Shown here one piece after another: positions 1,398-8,310 of a stretch of 29,443 nucleotides of DNA. Origin of the DNA: a virus; IMG/VR virus record IMGVR_UViG_3300042197_003019, positions 1-29,443 of that record; one strand, written 5' to 3'. The notes beneath the pieces are model-generated. The model did not search any database, was not told the origin of the DNA, and saw nothing but the letters and a program-made list of their open reading frames with translations. The translations under genes and the position numbers were made by a program. Each line of letters opens with the position of its first letter. The first letter of the stretch is position 1.

Positions 1398-1834
1398 TAA
1401 CCTAATCCAGATTGGAATTTTATAAACTCTATAGAATTTTTGATTTGATAGGTTCTATTTTGAATAACCTTGAGAATGCTTTCAATATAATTGAGCATTG
1501 TATCGTAGTAATCAATCTTTAGACAAACTGTAGAAAGTTTTTCATCTGCATCAAGATACTTTTGCATTGTATCTTTATCACGAATCTTTTTGGGAAAAGG
1601 ATCTTCAACATAAACGTCTGGATCTGCTTTTCCAGAATAATATTCATATCTTTCGTGACGAATATTTCTCTTCTGTTGTTCTGCTTTTTTTCTCAGAAGT
1701 ACAATGTTATTGTACATCTCAAAGTACTTTGCATGAAGTGCTGGAATTTTTAAAGATTCTGTGTGTAAATTGTCAATATCAATTTTGGAATCTTCTTCCC
1801 ACATCTTTTGAATCATATCAAGATCAAAACTCAT
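1397..1834 (-). CDS. uvsY: UvsY recombination mediator
   Basis: Mediator that loads UvsX recombinase onto gp32-coated single-stranded DNA. It is 145 aa against 137 in T4. It aligns with T4 UvsY in the central KKAEQQKRNIRHERYEYYSG stretch (the RLDYYSGRGDGDEF region of T4), in LDADEKL, and in the C-terminal helix IKNSIEFIKFQSG. It is highly charged, mostly helical, and has no signal or membrane segment. Its ATG overlaps the TGA of the upstream tail gene (ATGA), so translation is probably coupled. It is followed by uvsW. High confidence. Confidence 0.93.
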   Translation of the reverse strand: MSFDLDMIQKMWEEDSKIDIDNLHTESLKIPALHAKYFEMYNNIVLLRKKAEQQKRNIRHERYEYYSGKADPDVYVEDPFPKKIRDKDTMQKYLDADEKLSTVCLKIDYYDTMLNYIESILKVIQNRTYQIKNSIEFIKFQSGLG

Positions 1835-2394
1835 AATTTATTGCCACTTAAATCTGTGATATCATAGATAGTATACTTGAAAGTTACCTCAGCAGTCAAA
1901 TACTCAATATCAGAATCTGTTGCGTCGAATTGTAAATCTGATATTGAGTAAGGCCAAAGATCCTTAAACTTTAATTTAAAGTTTGGCGTGCTGCTACTAG
2001 TAAGTATGTGTAAAGTTCCATCAGAATAAATGTTCATCAGTTTTGAATCTGATGTATCAACATATTTTTGTTCTTGCTGCAGATCATAAATTTCATCAAG
2101 ACTGTGTGGAAATCCAAGTCCACGAATCCAATTCTGAATTTCCATATAGTTTTCAAGATTTTCATCGACTAAAAATCTGATTGTTAAATCATTGAATTGA
2201 ATTTTATCTCCGGGAGTGTCAATATCTTTCAGATATGATGGTTGAACAACCACTCCTAAGTTAAGTCCGGGAATATTTGCACTATTCGAAAAGAATGCAA
2301 CTTTTGGACACCTATTCAAAGTAAACTTAAATCCTACAGGAGAAAGAAAATTCCTGTTTTGGATTTGATTTGCAAATGCGTTTCCGACTGCCAT
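1831..2394 (-). CDS. Tail-tube-fold tail completion protein (gp3 position)
   Basis: A 187-aa protein just downstream of the gp23 region, where cyanophages usually carry the gene annotated gp3 (tail completion/tube terminator). Residues 17-50 hold FKFTLNRCPKV, then SANIPGLNLGVVVQPS. Later come LTIRFLVDENLENYMEIQNW and a C-terminal beta segment ending VTFKYTIYDI. This is the beta-strand, DE, helix with W pattern also visible in gp19 of this window (TILNDEAFGH, FEAWM), which suggests a shared tail-tube fold. Predicted role: part of, or a cap on, the tube or sheath end. The fold is inference from pattern; the gp3 label is by position and memory, not direct T4 similarity. The ATG is preceded by AGAAAAAG and a late box; the stop overlaps uvsY. 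Confidence 0.72.
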   Translation of the reverse strand: MAVGNAFANQIQNRNFLSPVGFKFTLNRCPKVAFFSNSANIPGLNLGVVVQPSYLKDIDTPGDKIQFNDLTIRFLVDENLENYMEIQNWIRGLGFPHSLDEIYDLQQEQKYVDTSDSKLMNIYSDGTLHILTSSSTPNFKLKFKDLWPYSISDLQFDATDSDIEYLTAEVTFKYTIYDITDLSGNKL

Positions 2395-2405: not shown

Positions 2406-2412
2406 TATTTAG
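2406..2412 (-). promoter_or_regulatory. Late-promoter-like box before the gp3-position gene
   Basis: The minus strand reads CTAAATA, directly after the T-tract of the terminator at 2415-2445 and only 11 bases before the ATG at 2394. The leader would be very short. Confidence 0.5.
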
Positions 2413-2414
2413 AT

Positions 2415-2445
2415 AAAAAAACAGGGAGGAATTAACCTCCCTGTT
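2415..2445 (-). terminator. Intrinsic terminator after the 79-aa gene
   Basis: On the minus strand a perfect 10-bp stem AACAGGGAGG/CCTCCCTGTT encloses a 6-base loop (TTAATT) and runs into seven T's counting the stem end. It starts one base after the TGA of the 79-aa gene. Confidence 0.9.
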
Positions 2446-2446
2446 A

Positions 2447-2686
2447 TCAGGCAATTCTTTTAAAGAGATAACCAGATTCAAGTTTTGCGTACTCAAATCG
2501 ATATCCCTTGTCTTTAAGGTTATTGGGAAGTGTCGGAACAGACTTTTTCTTTCCAAGGTCTTCAAATGGAACATGGAAACCCCCATCTACAGGAGTCTTT
2601 TCCCAAGGATAACTGCATCTAGATTGTTTATTTCTCAGAAATTCTTTTTCTGGAAAGTCTAAAACGGTGTAAACTTTGACTGCCAT
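2447..2686 (-). CDS. Small phage protein of unknown function with its own promoter and terminator
   Basis: A 79-aa ORF between gp23 and the tail completion gene. I do not recognise a function. Residues 25-40 contain YPWEKTPVDGGFHVPF, and the second half has GYRFEYAKLESGYLFKRI. This resembles a class of small phage proteins built as YPW-x-M/T-x-V-G-x-F-VP, a basic stretch, then K/R-x-F and G-x-RVWR; that resemblance is from memory and weak. It is one Cys, basic, and soluble. It stands out for its context: a consensus sigma70 promoter 32 bases upstream and a strong terminator at its stop, while its neighbours carry late boxes or are coupled. It may therefore be expressed early, unlike the virion genes around it. 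No clear Shine-Dalgarno precedes the ATG. Confidence 0.75.
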   Translation of the reverse strand: MAVKVYTVLDFPEKEFLRNKQSRCSYPWEKTPVDGGFHVPFEDLGKKKSVPTLPNNLKDKGYRFEYAKLESGYLFKRIA

Positions 2687-2717
2687 AATACTGGTTAAAA
2701 TGATTCACTGCTTTATC

Positions 2718-2746
2718 AGTATAAACTAGTTAATGGGTTTTGTCAA
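2718..2746 (-). promoter_or_regulatory. Consensus sigma70-type promoter (TTGACA-17-TATACT)
   Basis: Minus strand: -35 TTGACA (2746-2741), a 17-base spacer, and -10 TATACT (2723-2718). The predicted start is near 2711, giving a leader of about 25 bases to the ATG at 2686. It sits just downstream of the gp23 terminator. Host-type promoters in T4-like cyanophages are normally associated with early genes. Confidence 0.82.
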
Positions 2747-2758
2747 CACTTTTTCAAT

Positions 2759-2782
2759 AAAAAAGGGGTCCTTTCGGACCCC
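2759..2782 (-). terminator. Intrinsic terminator after gp23
   Basis: On the minus strand a 7-bp perfect stem GGGGTCC/GGACCCC closes a GAAA (GNRA) tetraloop, followed by TTTTTTATTG. It lies about 20 bases past the gp23 stop and should limit readthrough from the most highly expressed gene. Confidence 0.93.
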
Positions 2783-2803
2783 CCAGAAACCTGTGAGAAT
2801 GAC

Positions 2804-4225
2804 TCACATGAGGTTCTTGATAGCAACTCTTCTGTAGTAGCGGTTGCTGTTAACACGGAGACGACCCAGACCCTGATCAGTACCTTCTGCAAATGGGTTT
2901 GCAACGATACCGTAACGAGTCTTGAATCCGATTTTTGGCTGGAAGGAATTCTCACCAACCGCACGTACCATCTGAAGAGGAACGTATGGGCAGTAGAAAA
3001 GACCAGCATCATAAGGCGAAGAACCCTTATAACCAACAACGTAGTACTGGTTGGATCCTTGTGCCAGACCGCTGTTATCAGCAGCCAGGTTTGCCGAATA
3101 TGGGTCAATGTAAACTCTGTACTTACCGTTGATTGTACCAGCAAAGGTGTTGCCAGTGTCATCAACGTTCAGGTTTGCATTCAGAGCAGGGGTGTAATCC
3201 AGAACACCAGCCATGGTCAGTGCTGAAGCAACGTCAGCAGAGCACATGATGATGTTGCCCTTACCGCGACGAGTTCTCTGAGCGATTCTGTTTGCATCTC
3301 TTTCGATTTGGAACAGAAGACCCTTGAACTTCTCAACGGACCAACGACCGTTGGAGTCGATGTCGAGGTCGAATACACCTGCGGTTGCAGTGTTCTCGAT
3401 TGCGCCTTGCTCAGCGATCTTGTAGATAGTACGGATAACTTCACGGTTGATCTCAGCAAGAATTTCGCTAGACAGAATGTTAGCGAGTTCTGCTTCTGCA
3501 TTCAGACCATGAATTGCCTTCAGATCCTGAGCGAGCTCGAGGGAGTATTCTGCTTTCAGTGCGCGTGACTTAGCAGTTACAGTGACTTTCTCGATTGAGA
3601 ATGCCATCTGGTTGAACTGGTCGCCAGTGCCAGAACCGAGGTTCTCAGCATCGCCAGTGTTCATGCCACCACCAACGTTATATGCCGTTGAGGTTGCAGT
3701 TCCAACTGGGTTCAGGATTGCTGGGTTGGTTCCTGACTGTGCGGTTGTACCGATACCAGCAGCAGCGTCTGCAAATGCACCGGTAAGGTTAAATCCGTCA
3801 TCTTGACCAGAGAATGCGGTATCAACTTCGTTGAAGAATGCTTCGGTTCCGCTCTGGGTGTTGTAGCGCGAACGCATTGCGAAGATCAGGCCGGTAGGAC
3901 CATTCATTGGCTGAACGCCAGCGAGATCATAAGCAACCAGGTTTGGCATCGAACGACGGATCAGCGAGATCAGTACGGGATCAAAACCAGCGGTAGGACC
4001 AGCAGCGGCTGACGAACCGGTGAAACCACCAGTGCCAGTTGAGTTGGTTGGGGATTCCATCAGGTTCATACCTGATGTAAATGCTTGCTCCTCACGGAGG
4101 AACTTTTCTTGGTTTTCGAGCAGGACGGCGGTTACAGCTCTTCTGTGCGAATCTTTGATTGGATCAAGACCCTCATAGTTCAGAAGGGGAGCCCACTTTT
4201 CCTGCAACTGTTCGGAATGGAACAT
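2804..4225 (-). CDS. gp23: Major capsid protein gp23
   Basis: Forms the hexameric lattice of the T4-type head (HK97 fold). It is 473 aa against 521 in T4. It matches T4 gp23 across its length: N-terminal EKWAPLLNYEGL, RRSMPNLVAYDLAGVQPMN, KSRALKAEYSLELAQDLKA, ILAEINREV, GKYRVYIDPY, and the C-terminal FQPKIGFKTRYGIVANPFAE. Prohead maturation by gp21 should remove the N-terminal propeptide. NLME(57)-S aligns with the T4 cleavage site FLTE(65) and fits the hydrophobic-x-E rule. AAAGG lies 9 bases before the ATG. A strong terminator follows and gp22 precedes it, as in T4. Confidence 0.98.
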   Translation of the reverse strand: MFHSEQLQEKWAPLLNYEGLDPIKDSHRRAVTAVLLENQEKFLREEQAFTSGMNLMESPTNSTGTGGFTGSSAAAGPTAGFDPVLISLIRRSMPNLVAYDLAGVQPMNGPTGLIFAMRSRYNTQSGTEAFFNEVDTAFSGQDDGFNLTGAFADAAAGIGTTAQSGTNPAILNPVGTATSTAYNVGGGMNTGDAENLGSGTGDQFNQMAFSIEKVTVTAKSRALKAEYSLELAQDLKAIHGLNAEAELANILSSEILAEINREVIRTIYKIAEQGAIENTATAGVFDLDIDSNGRWSVEKFKGLLFQIERDANRIAQRTRRGKGNIIMCSADVASALTMAGVLDYTPALNANLNVDDTGNTFAGTINGKYRVYIDPYSANLAADNSGLAQGSNQYYVVGYKGSSPYDAGLFYCPYVPLQMVRAVGENSFQPKIGFKTRYGIVANPFAEGTDQGLGRLRVNSNRYYRRVAIKNLM

Positions 4226-6618: not shown

Positions 6619-6625
6619 TATTTAT
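6619..6625 (-). promoter_or_regulatory. Late-promoter-like box before gp67-like gene
   Basis: The minus strand reads ATAAATA inside AATAAATAAAAACG, overlapping the gp20 stop, 24 bases before the ATG at 6594. Confidence 0.55.
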
Positions 6626-8310
6626 TAAATTTCGCCACCCTTGGGCATTTCTACTTGCTTACCACTGGCAACGGTTGCTTGGCCTTGTGAATCAAGGTTT
6701 GGTTCCATGACTGGAGCTCCAAGATCTCCTCCCATTCCTGCTGGAATTGGTTGTCCTGTTGCAGGATCCATCATCATTTGAGATGGATCTGGAATAGTTC
6801 CATCTTTGATTTCTTTTTCGATAAGTTGATCCTGCTCAATAATTTCTTCATCAGTTTGACGAAGAACTTTGCGACGGATATAATCTTGTGAAAAATACTT
6901 GCCGACGTATGGTTCTGCCTGAGCGACCATATTTAATCTTTCAGTTAAAAGTTCCGTTTCTTTCAGTTCTGCAAAGTGATTGTCATATAAGAAGTCATAT
7001 TGAATATGCTCACTCATAACTTCCCAGTCTTCTGGAGTGATAATATTTTTAAGAATCAACTGAGTTTTGAGCATATCGTTGAACATATTTGAGAATCTTT
7101 TTCTCAAACGTCCCACAAACTTACTGAACTTGACTTCATCACGGAGAATTTCTGAGGATCTACCAAGATTAAATCCACCATCACCACCAATTCTTGATAC
7201 TGGAACATTCAATGAACGATATAATTTGTCTTGGAAATACTTGATATCTGTGATTTCTCCAAGGTTTTGACCACCAGGAAGTGTAGTAATTTCAGTTCCT
7301 CTACCACCTTCACGGCGAGGAAGCCAGAAATCCTCAAGCATTGACATATATTTGCGGTCATCCCGAACTTCACCAGTCGCTGCATCGTAAACAACCTTAT
7401 TACGATATCTCATCATAACATCGCGCAAATATTGTTCTGCTTTGATCTTAGGAAGATTACCTACATCAATATAGAAAATACGACGTTCTGGGGCTCTTGA
7501 TAATCTGTAAATCACAAGAGAATCTTCAATCATACGAAGTTGATTGAGAGACTTAATTGCTTTCTGTAAGTATGAAAGTGTTGTGCCTTTATTTCTATCT
7601 ACTAATCCAGATGTGCAATATGTAATAGCATCTCTTGCAATCTTAATACCTTTTGAATCTCCATTTGAAGAAGGATTTCCAACAGGATACATTGCCTTTG
7701 GAGTATATACGAAGTACTCTTCAATCTCAGGAAAATCATATTCCATGGGATTGTCCCGATTATAATTACTTAATCTTACTCTCTCGTCTTTATCAGTTTT
7801 TTTAGTCTGCCTTACATATTTAATTTTTAATGCATCAATATATCTTAATTCTTTAATTCCTTCATGTGGATTTTTTAAGTCGATAATTTTATGATAGAAA
7901 AGTCTTCCATCAACATACCAATTTCTATAAATTTCATGAGATTTTTTATCAAAATCTAAAAGATCAAGAATATGTTTAAACTCTTCTCTAATTTTTTTCT
8001 TAATACCATCGCTAGCATTTAGGTTTGATAACTCAATTTTTACTGGAGTGTCATCTGTATCTGATACAATTGCTTCGTTTACAATATCTTCAATGGCACT
8101 ATCAACTTCTGGGTGAAGAGCCATTTCACGATATCTTTTGATTAAATCAAACTCGGTTCTGTAGATACCTTCAATATCTACATAAGAACCAAAAAATCCA
8201 CTGGTTAGATAATGATCAACCCCGTCCTCATTATTGGGAGGAACGGGGGACAATACACCAGGGGATAATGGTTCTTTATCTTCAATTGAGAAACCAAAAA
8301 GTTTTGCCAT
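6625..8310 (-). CDS. gp20: Portal vertex protein gp20
   Basis: Dodecameric portal through which DNA is packaged, and the nucleation point of the prohead. It is 561 aa (T4: 524). Diagnostic stretches are YREMALHPEVDSAIEDIVNE, WYVDGRLFYHKIID, LRMIEDSLVIYRLSRAPERR, IFYIDVGNLPK, and MLEDFWLPRREGGRGTEI followed by TLPGGQNLGEI. These are the regions used for cyanophage g20 typing. The C-terminus is Pro/Gly/Met-rich (MMMDPATGQPIPAGMGG) as in cyanophages. The start is supported by the AKLFGFSIEDKE N-terminus. It is followed by gp67-like and preceded by gp19. Confidence 0.98.
   Translation of the reverse strand: MAKLFGFSIEDKEPLSPGVLSPVPPNNEDGVDHYLTSGFFGSYVDIEGIYRTEFDLIKRYREMALHPEVDSAIEDIVNEAIVSDTDDTPVKIELSNLNASDGIKKKIREEFKHILDLLDFDKKSHEIYRNWYVDGRLFYHKIIDLKNPHEGIKELRYIDALKIKYVRQTKKTDKDERVRLSNYNRDNPMEYDFPEIEEYFVYTPKAMYPVGNPSSNGDSKGIKIARDAITYCTSGLVDRNKGTTLSYLQKAIKSLNQLRMIEDSLVIYRLSRAPERRIFYIDVGNLPKIKAEQYLRDVMMRYRNKVVYDAATGEVRDDRKYMSMLEDFWLPRREGGRGTEITTLPGGQNLGEITDIKYFQDKLYRSLNVPVSRIGGDGGFNLGRSSEILRDEVKFSKFVGRLRKRFSNMFNDMLKTQLILKNIITPEDWEVMSEHIQYDFLYDNHFAELKETELLTERLNMVAQAEPYVGKYFSQDYIRRKVLRQTDEEIIEQDQLIEKEIKDGTIPDPSQMMMDPATGQPIPAGMGGDLGAPVMEPNLDSQGQATVASGKQVEMPKGGEI

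Follow-up and report, generated by a model that had tools for sequence, protein, structure and literature searches.

Morons in the classical sense were described in temperate phages, where the lysogen expresses them. T4-type phages reportedly carry another sort of cassette, the promoter-early stem-loop or PeSL, a name associated with Arbiol 2010 and Comeau 2014. In the text available of one later source, gene shuffling in T4-like phages is attributed to the PeSLs (PMC4503421). The cassette that we report here is of a kind already known, moron or PeSL-like, and shares features with both: as in the morons of tailed phages, the gene has its own promoter and terminator and lies between genes that are adjacent in relatives, and as in the PeSLs, an early-type promoter adjoins a stem-loop and may be tied to gene shuffling. 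In spite of these similarities, the cassette shows some differences: (i) the phage is T4-like, and the promoter would serve early infection; (ii) unlike a PeSL, the cassette is embedded among late structural genes, where it occupies a single defined junction; (iii) its promoter geometry is coupled to one protein family. A PeSL would be expected to recur as a conserved composite sequence in its genome and in relatives; here the geometry recurs in the relatives and the exact sequence does not.

The window, that is, the whole stretch of DNA analysed, comprises the 29,443 bases of virus record IMGVR_UViG_3300042197_003019 and is a fragment of a T4-like cyanophage, the best matches of its gp23 region among the nearest records being Synechococcus phages in the family Kyanoviridae. 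Along the minus strand come gp23, an ORF of 79 aa, a gp3-like gene (gp3 being the name of the corresponding gene in S-SM2), UvsY and a long frame at 2-1369 which, by its position compared with annotated phages, would be UvsW. The features are as follows.

2804-4225, minus strand: gp23 major capsid protein gene, the upstream neighbour (phrog_138 major head protein, E 1.8e-169).
2763-2784, minus strand: intrinsic terminator of gp23, a 9-pair stem with 6 GC, also found in this position in L006 and L007.
About 2413-2755, minus strand: insert of 343 bp, whose ends T/A runs leave uncertain by a few nt.
2718-2746, minus strand: host-type promoter TTGACA-17-TATACT, 11/12, with the -35 at 2746-2741 and the -10 at 2723-2718.
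2447-2686, minus strand: 79-aa ORF that probably belongs, as a divergent member, to a cyanophage family without a name.
2420-2445, minus strand: cassette terminator, a 10-pair stem with 6 GC and a T tract, directly after the stop codon.
2406-2413, minus strand: late-type box TCTAAATA, which belongs to gp3 and lies outside the cassette; the same octamer precedes gp3 in 85 of 149 relatives.
1831-2394, minus strand: gp3-like tail tube or tail completion gene, the downstream neighbour (phrog_45 tail tube, E 2.3e-40).
After the gp3-like gene, minus strand: UvsY gene (phrog_231).

The box TCTAAATA is a variant of the late motif given for S-PM2 as NATAAATA in the portion of PMC2984593 at hand. The original prediction had placed a self-contained unit between gp23 and the tail completion gene, and its ORF, host-type promoter and terminator were all found; the cassette is real, although the extent proposed for it, 2415-2782, was not exact, since the inserted DNA covers about 2413-2755 and the terminator at 2784-2763 belongs to gp23.

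That this DNA was inserted is shown by the closest relatives among the matches listed, L006 and L007 (gp3 identity 99 and 98%). In both, the gp23 stop and the gp3 ATG are separated by an empty junction of 72 nt, versus 415 nt in the window, and the gp23 terminator and the gp3 late box are kept with nothing between them. The insert separates the gp23 terminator, with its T tract, from the gp3 late box, both signals being intact. On the gp23 side, the DNA of L006 is 95.0% and that of L007 98.7% identical to the window; on the gp3 side the values are 96.9-97.0%. Since 13 further near relatives are empty as well (L008, L010-L015, L019, L021, L031, L033, L066 and L069), a gain in the lineage of the window seems more likely than many losses. 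Taken at the level of sequence, the locus shows an insertion that kept both flanking signals and that brings a near-consensus sigma-70-type promoter, an ORF and a terminator of its own; these features, between genes that are adjacent in L006 and L007, support the moron-like reading that had been proposed.

We surveyed this junction in at least 159 IMG/VR loci, fetched via gp3 and gp23 similarity, plus 4 annotated phages; both ends could be placed in 149 of the 163, with at least two contigs present in duplicate (L052/L092, L045/L135). Of these junctions, 93 measure less than 115 nt and 56 more, and in 89 of the 93 short ones a late-like octamer comes no more than six bases after the T tract. 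An 11/12 promoter occurs in 0 of these 149 other junctions. With 93 of the 149 junctions that short, the gene is not a core gene carried with a late box by all relatives, in agreement with the original prediction.

Within the window, the -35 begins 60 nt before the ATG and transcription is predicted to start near 2711. The stem of the gp23 terminator ends at 2763 and the -35 starts at 2746, so that a stem-loop is directly joined to an early-type promoter; the gp23 and cassette terminators are the two longest terminator-like stems within the first 15 kb. Dinucleotide shuffling reproduced a promoter of at least 11/12 in the 70 nt before the ORF in 11 of 5000 trials and anywhere inside the insert in 7 of 2000, and an ATG-started ORF of at least 79 codons on the sense strand of the insert in 14 of 5000. 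Across the whole window, two 11/12 sites do not exceed what chance would give (mean 0.8 and maximum 3 in 30 shuffles), and the case therefore rests on position and comparison, not on the site alone. The claim that this was the only such promoter in the window did not survive: the other 11/12 site (TTGACG-17-TATAAT, 6856-6884, plus strand) lies inside and antisense to an ORF at 6625-8310, and may be a chance occurrence or an antisense start.

The cassette does not deviate in base composition (37.5% GC, versus 38.4% for the window). The ORF has a codon score of 0.08 in frame, the other five frames being lower (-0.23 to -0.05); this score is poor for the phage, falling within the lowest 2.8% of true-gene segments. 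The weak codon bias, together with a short predicted transcript (about 297 nt), would fit a unit that yields a regulatory RNA, the ORF being incidental. We consider this extremely improbable and have rejected it: no excess structure was found (z-score 0.0), Rfam gave no match within the window, and related ORFs in other phages are under purifying selection.

These related ORFs came from a scan of IMG/VR for the 3' end of gp23 followed by TTGACA-N16-18-TANNNT, which returned at least 5 loci; in two of them, L165 and L168, a 90-aa ORF has the same layout. Searching with the 90-aa protein retrieved QPB08322.1 of S-H9-2 and at least 14 IMG/VR loci (including the contigs of L165 and L168), and an alignment search added three more, L186-L188, with QFG06300.1 of S-SCSM1 next. 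The family, which has no name and whose members are about 90 aa long, thus includes at least 17 IMG/VR loci plus S-H9-2 and S-SCSM1; 19 loci, representing about 11 distinct upstream sequences, were analysed. The family ORF directly follows gp23 in 19/19. In all of them it is preceded by a host-type promoter of 10-12/12 with a spacer of exactly 17, whose -35 starts 54-58 nt before the ATG; the match is 12/12 in L182, L185, S-H9-2 and S-SCSM1, and in the 12 sequences tested, window included, between 0 and 37 of 2000 shuffles equalled the sequence's own promoter score. As only L172 and L181 were discovered through the promoter, the other 17 of the 19, found by protein similarity, are an independent test of it. 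A terminator follows the ORF in every locus, 15 by script and 4 by eye (L172, L181, L178 and L179, where the stem overlaps the stop codon). Host-type promoter and own terminator, as originally predicted for the window, are therefore found there and in 19/19 loci of the related family, and comparison of the loci shows that other cyanophages have, in the same slot, a related protein family with the same predicted promoter geometry and terminator. The presence or absence of the cassette in relatives, which had been suggested as a check, gave both answers: the closest relatives, L006 and L007, are empty, and the family occupies the slot in at least 19 loci.

Many family promoters (e.g. L172, L174, L182, L185 and L186) have in common an ATAG some six bases past the -10, which is perhaps a conserved start region. 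An ORF at the junction of L110 (19.9 bits) was excluded from the 19; its TTTACA lies within the terminator, which makes the promoter doubtful. QPB08322.1 and QFG06300.1, the annotated counterparts of the window gene, resemble it in lying directly after gp23 with a 12/12 promoter, a terminator and profile-level similarity; both are hypothetical proteins with no function annotated, from phages whose recorded hosts are WH 8102 (S-H9-2) and WH 7803 (S-SCSM1). The family protein was not found in plasmids, and the family profile had no match in genome contigs.

The loci of these two phages bear on another explanation, according to which the promoter mainly serves the downstream genes gp3, uvsY and uvsW, expressed early or at middle times by read-through of a leaky terminator. 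UvsY and uvsW have recombination roles and come directly after gp3, and mixed early and late promoters are possible in cyanophages, as far as the consulted part of PMC2984593 goes. However, a 10-pair terminator with a T tract separates the ORF from gp3, the 11/12 promoter is missing from the 149 other junctions with gp3 still in place, and in both S-H9-2 and S-SCSM1 further ORFs lie between the cassette and gp3. We regard this explanation as very unlikely.

Whether the window ORF belongs to the family had to be judged from profiles. Alone, it matched none of 50,697 phage records at E 0.01 and had only three weak matches (E 2-5), none in 22 records and none with L168 in pairwise BLASTP, and its peptide patterns were not found in IMG/VR or the genome contigs. 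Its identity to family members is 24-35% (about 26-27% to QPB08322.1 and QFG06300.1 in the alignment). A first profile, built on ten members before L186 and L189 were added, gave it 11.3 bits versus 12.5 for the best shuffle. These results, the low identity and the indecisive first profile, are what would be expected of a protein that is not related to the family but sits in a slot of this kind, its likeness to the family being due to chance. By contrast, the second profile, with L186 and L189, gave 20.9 bits (E 3.6e-4 among 20,001 sequences), clearly above the 12.6 bits of the best of 20,000 shuffles of the ORF; searched against the records, the family profile matched carriers only, the records including rows that built it. 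Columns common to the window ORF and the family include Y26 P27 W28, F37, K48, P51, P54, G72 Y73 and R77, and both have the same place, spacing and terminator. A single-sequence structure model was poor (pLDDT 55); AlphaFold2 with 11 rows reached pLDDT 65, with 72, 78 and 79 in the successive blocks of ten residues from 51 on, and predicted with moderate confidence a strand-helix-helix-strand-strand topology. Foldseek with this model in a viral library placed the S-SCSM1 protein at rank 2 (E 7e-3), a match that is not fully independent, since other family members, though not this protein, were in the alignment of the model. On this evidence a chance likeness is improbable, and the window ORF is very probably a family member. 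The gene would then probably belong to a family that holds the same place in other cyanophages, which lay beyond the view of the original prediction.

The same junction receives other genes as well. Most of these other inserts look late-type: in most of 16 examples from the 149-locus survey a late box comes right after the gp23 terminator and the insert runs into gp3, and only 2 of the 55 filled junctions of at least 150 nt have the T tract plus late box at their end. Unlike the window cassette, with which they share the junction, the HNH-like, GIY-YIG, peptide deformylase and Trp halogenase inserts mostly stand behind late boxes and lack a second terminator. The HNH-like ORFs (about 100-135 aa; L017, L024, L039, L047, L054, L056, L059, L093, L098, L130 and L160) are mostly of this late-box type; L017, the one scanned, matched Pfam HNH below the cut-off only. 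A GIY-YIG ORF is found in L023 and L025 (Pfam E 4.6e-6 for L023), and peptide deformylase-like ORFs adjoin gp3 in L157, L141, L119 and L169 (Pfam E 4.6e-38 for L157, the sole one scanned); tryptophan halogenase is another cargo named by Pfam. A family of short ORFs of about 60-80 aa, with a MAYYIKKP-like start and a VVSE-like end, has late boxes where these are visible (L029, L100, L005, L090, L103, L109, L116, L150, L091, L160 and L144); that of L029 had no Pfam match. At the junction of L060 and L123, minus-strand ORFs of 515 and 502 aa run opposite to the gp23/gp3 direction and look, by eye, nuclease-like. In L166 (11175-11537), a gene for a cyanophage outer-membrane-like barrel (Phage_OMP in Pfam) lies directly after gp23, with a TTGACA promoter before it and a terminator after it, making it a second early-type cassette in the same slot; in L167 and L169 other ORFs lie downstream of TTGACA promoters.

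Among nine family members, dN/dS ranges from 0.02 to 0.34 (31 of 36 pairs, those where dS was computable), which shows, at the sequence level, that the family is under purifying selection. Because the identities of the family and of gp3 are poorly correlated (r = 0.24; 66 pairs, 12 carriers), the cassette probably travels separately from the genes beside it. Cassettes can be more alike than the neighbouring gp3 (75% versus 48% for L172-L173, 62% versus 37% for L172-L183) or much less so (30% versus 69% for L186 and the window), and in gp23 the carriers are 57-90% identical to the window, versus 96 and 99% for the empty L006 and L007. Slot exchange is the simpler reading, as unequal rates alone do not easily give both signs. 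The empty and filled sites and the discordant identities agree with recombination and show no breakpoint.

A mobile regulatory cassette of the PeSL kind would also account for such exchange: the promoter-terminator module would be what is selected and recombines, and the ORF an interchangeable, perhaps neutral cargo. The gene shuffling ascribed to PeSLs is in line with this explanation, and so is the terminator-promoter-ORF-terminator layout at one site with differing cargo (the family, the L166 Phage_OMP gene, L167 and L169). The purifying selection on the family protein argues, however, that the cargo is not neutral, and exact scans of IMG/VR found no second copy of the window promoter or terminator sequence; in addition, PeSLs as the explanation of the S-PM2 gene-acquisition case are doubted in the same partial source (PMC4503421). 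We consider this alternative unlikely.

Promoter-like sites of this type recur in cyanophages. Nine cyanophage records contain TTGACW-17-TATAAT 76 times on one strand but 3 times on the opposite one, versus 1 for a reversed-pattern control, and the set includes the cassette sites of S-H9-2 and S-SCSM1. Syn9 has a site of this sort ahead of two high-light-inducible genes and a putative thioredoxin, and a further one that overlaps the 3' part of a baseplate hub gene, with a small ORF after it. According to the sections of PMC2984593 consulted, early genes of S-PM2 and Syn9 have sigma-70-like motifs, not found in S-RSM4, and the cyanomyoviruses, which lack alt, modA and modB, have their early genes transcribed by the unmodified host polymerase. 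This supports a cassette competent for early transcription, from a promoter that could stay active later; it speaks to early competence, not to timing.

Searches of Pfam, NCBIfam, PHROGs and PDB gave no significant match for the ORF or the family, and in PDB only chance-level matches by profile and by fold. Two leads were dropped: phrog_3261, a weak one (E 0.025 for L183), was absent from 10 records including carriers, and a supposed likeness to the DUF7303-type family of small phage proteins had no Pfam support. In the S-SCSM1 record a number of virion proteins carry a tag and QFG06300.1 does not, which means little, as no hypothetical protein in the stretch checked is tagged. The cassette is not described in the parts consulted of PMC3037559, PMC2984593, PMC2993671, PMC4503421, PMC4177764 and PMC9602691, and in this partial literature we found no description of the slot, the family or the coupling of promoter geometry to a protein family.

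Taken together, the comparisons make it reasonably probable that the locus is an insulated cassette of early type, similar to a moron, which occupies a reusable slot bounded by the gp23 terminator and the late promoter of gp3 and whose small protein would be directed at the host. Once the DNA enters the cell, unmodified host RNA polymerase would transcribe the cassette into a short single-gene mRNA, from about 2711 to 2415 (some 297 nt predicted). The cassette terminator would keep this early transcription out of gp3-uvsY-uvsW, and the gp23 terminator would stop gp23 transcripts from running into the cassette. The encoded protein might act early on a host component, for instance in takeover or counter-defence, and the cassette may have spread by recombination at the terminator, T-tract and late-box boundaries. 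More tentatively, and with considerable doubt, the slot could be a docking site in cyanophages for swappable, insulated, immediate-early genes, each behind a near-perfect host promoter and coding for a different small protein directed at the host, the family being a new takeover or counter-defence factor.

Many small genes of cyanophage genomes have no known function. This family stands out by its conserved position, its promoter geometry and its insulation as probably early-acting and as a candidate for takeover of the cyanobacterial host, and the slot suggests how a T4-like phage can hold an early gene within a late operon while leaving its neighbours undisturbed.
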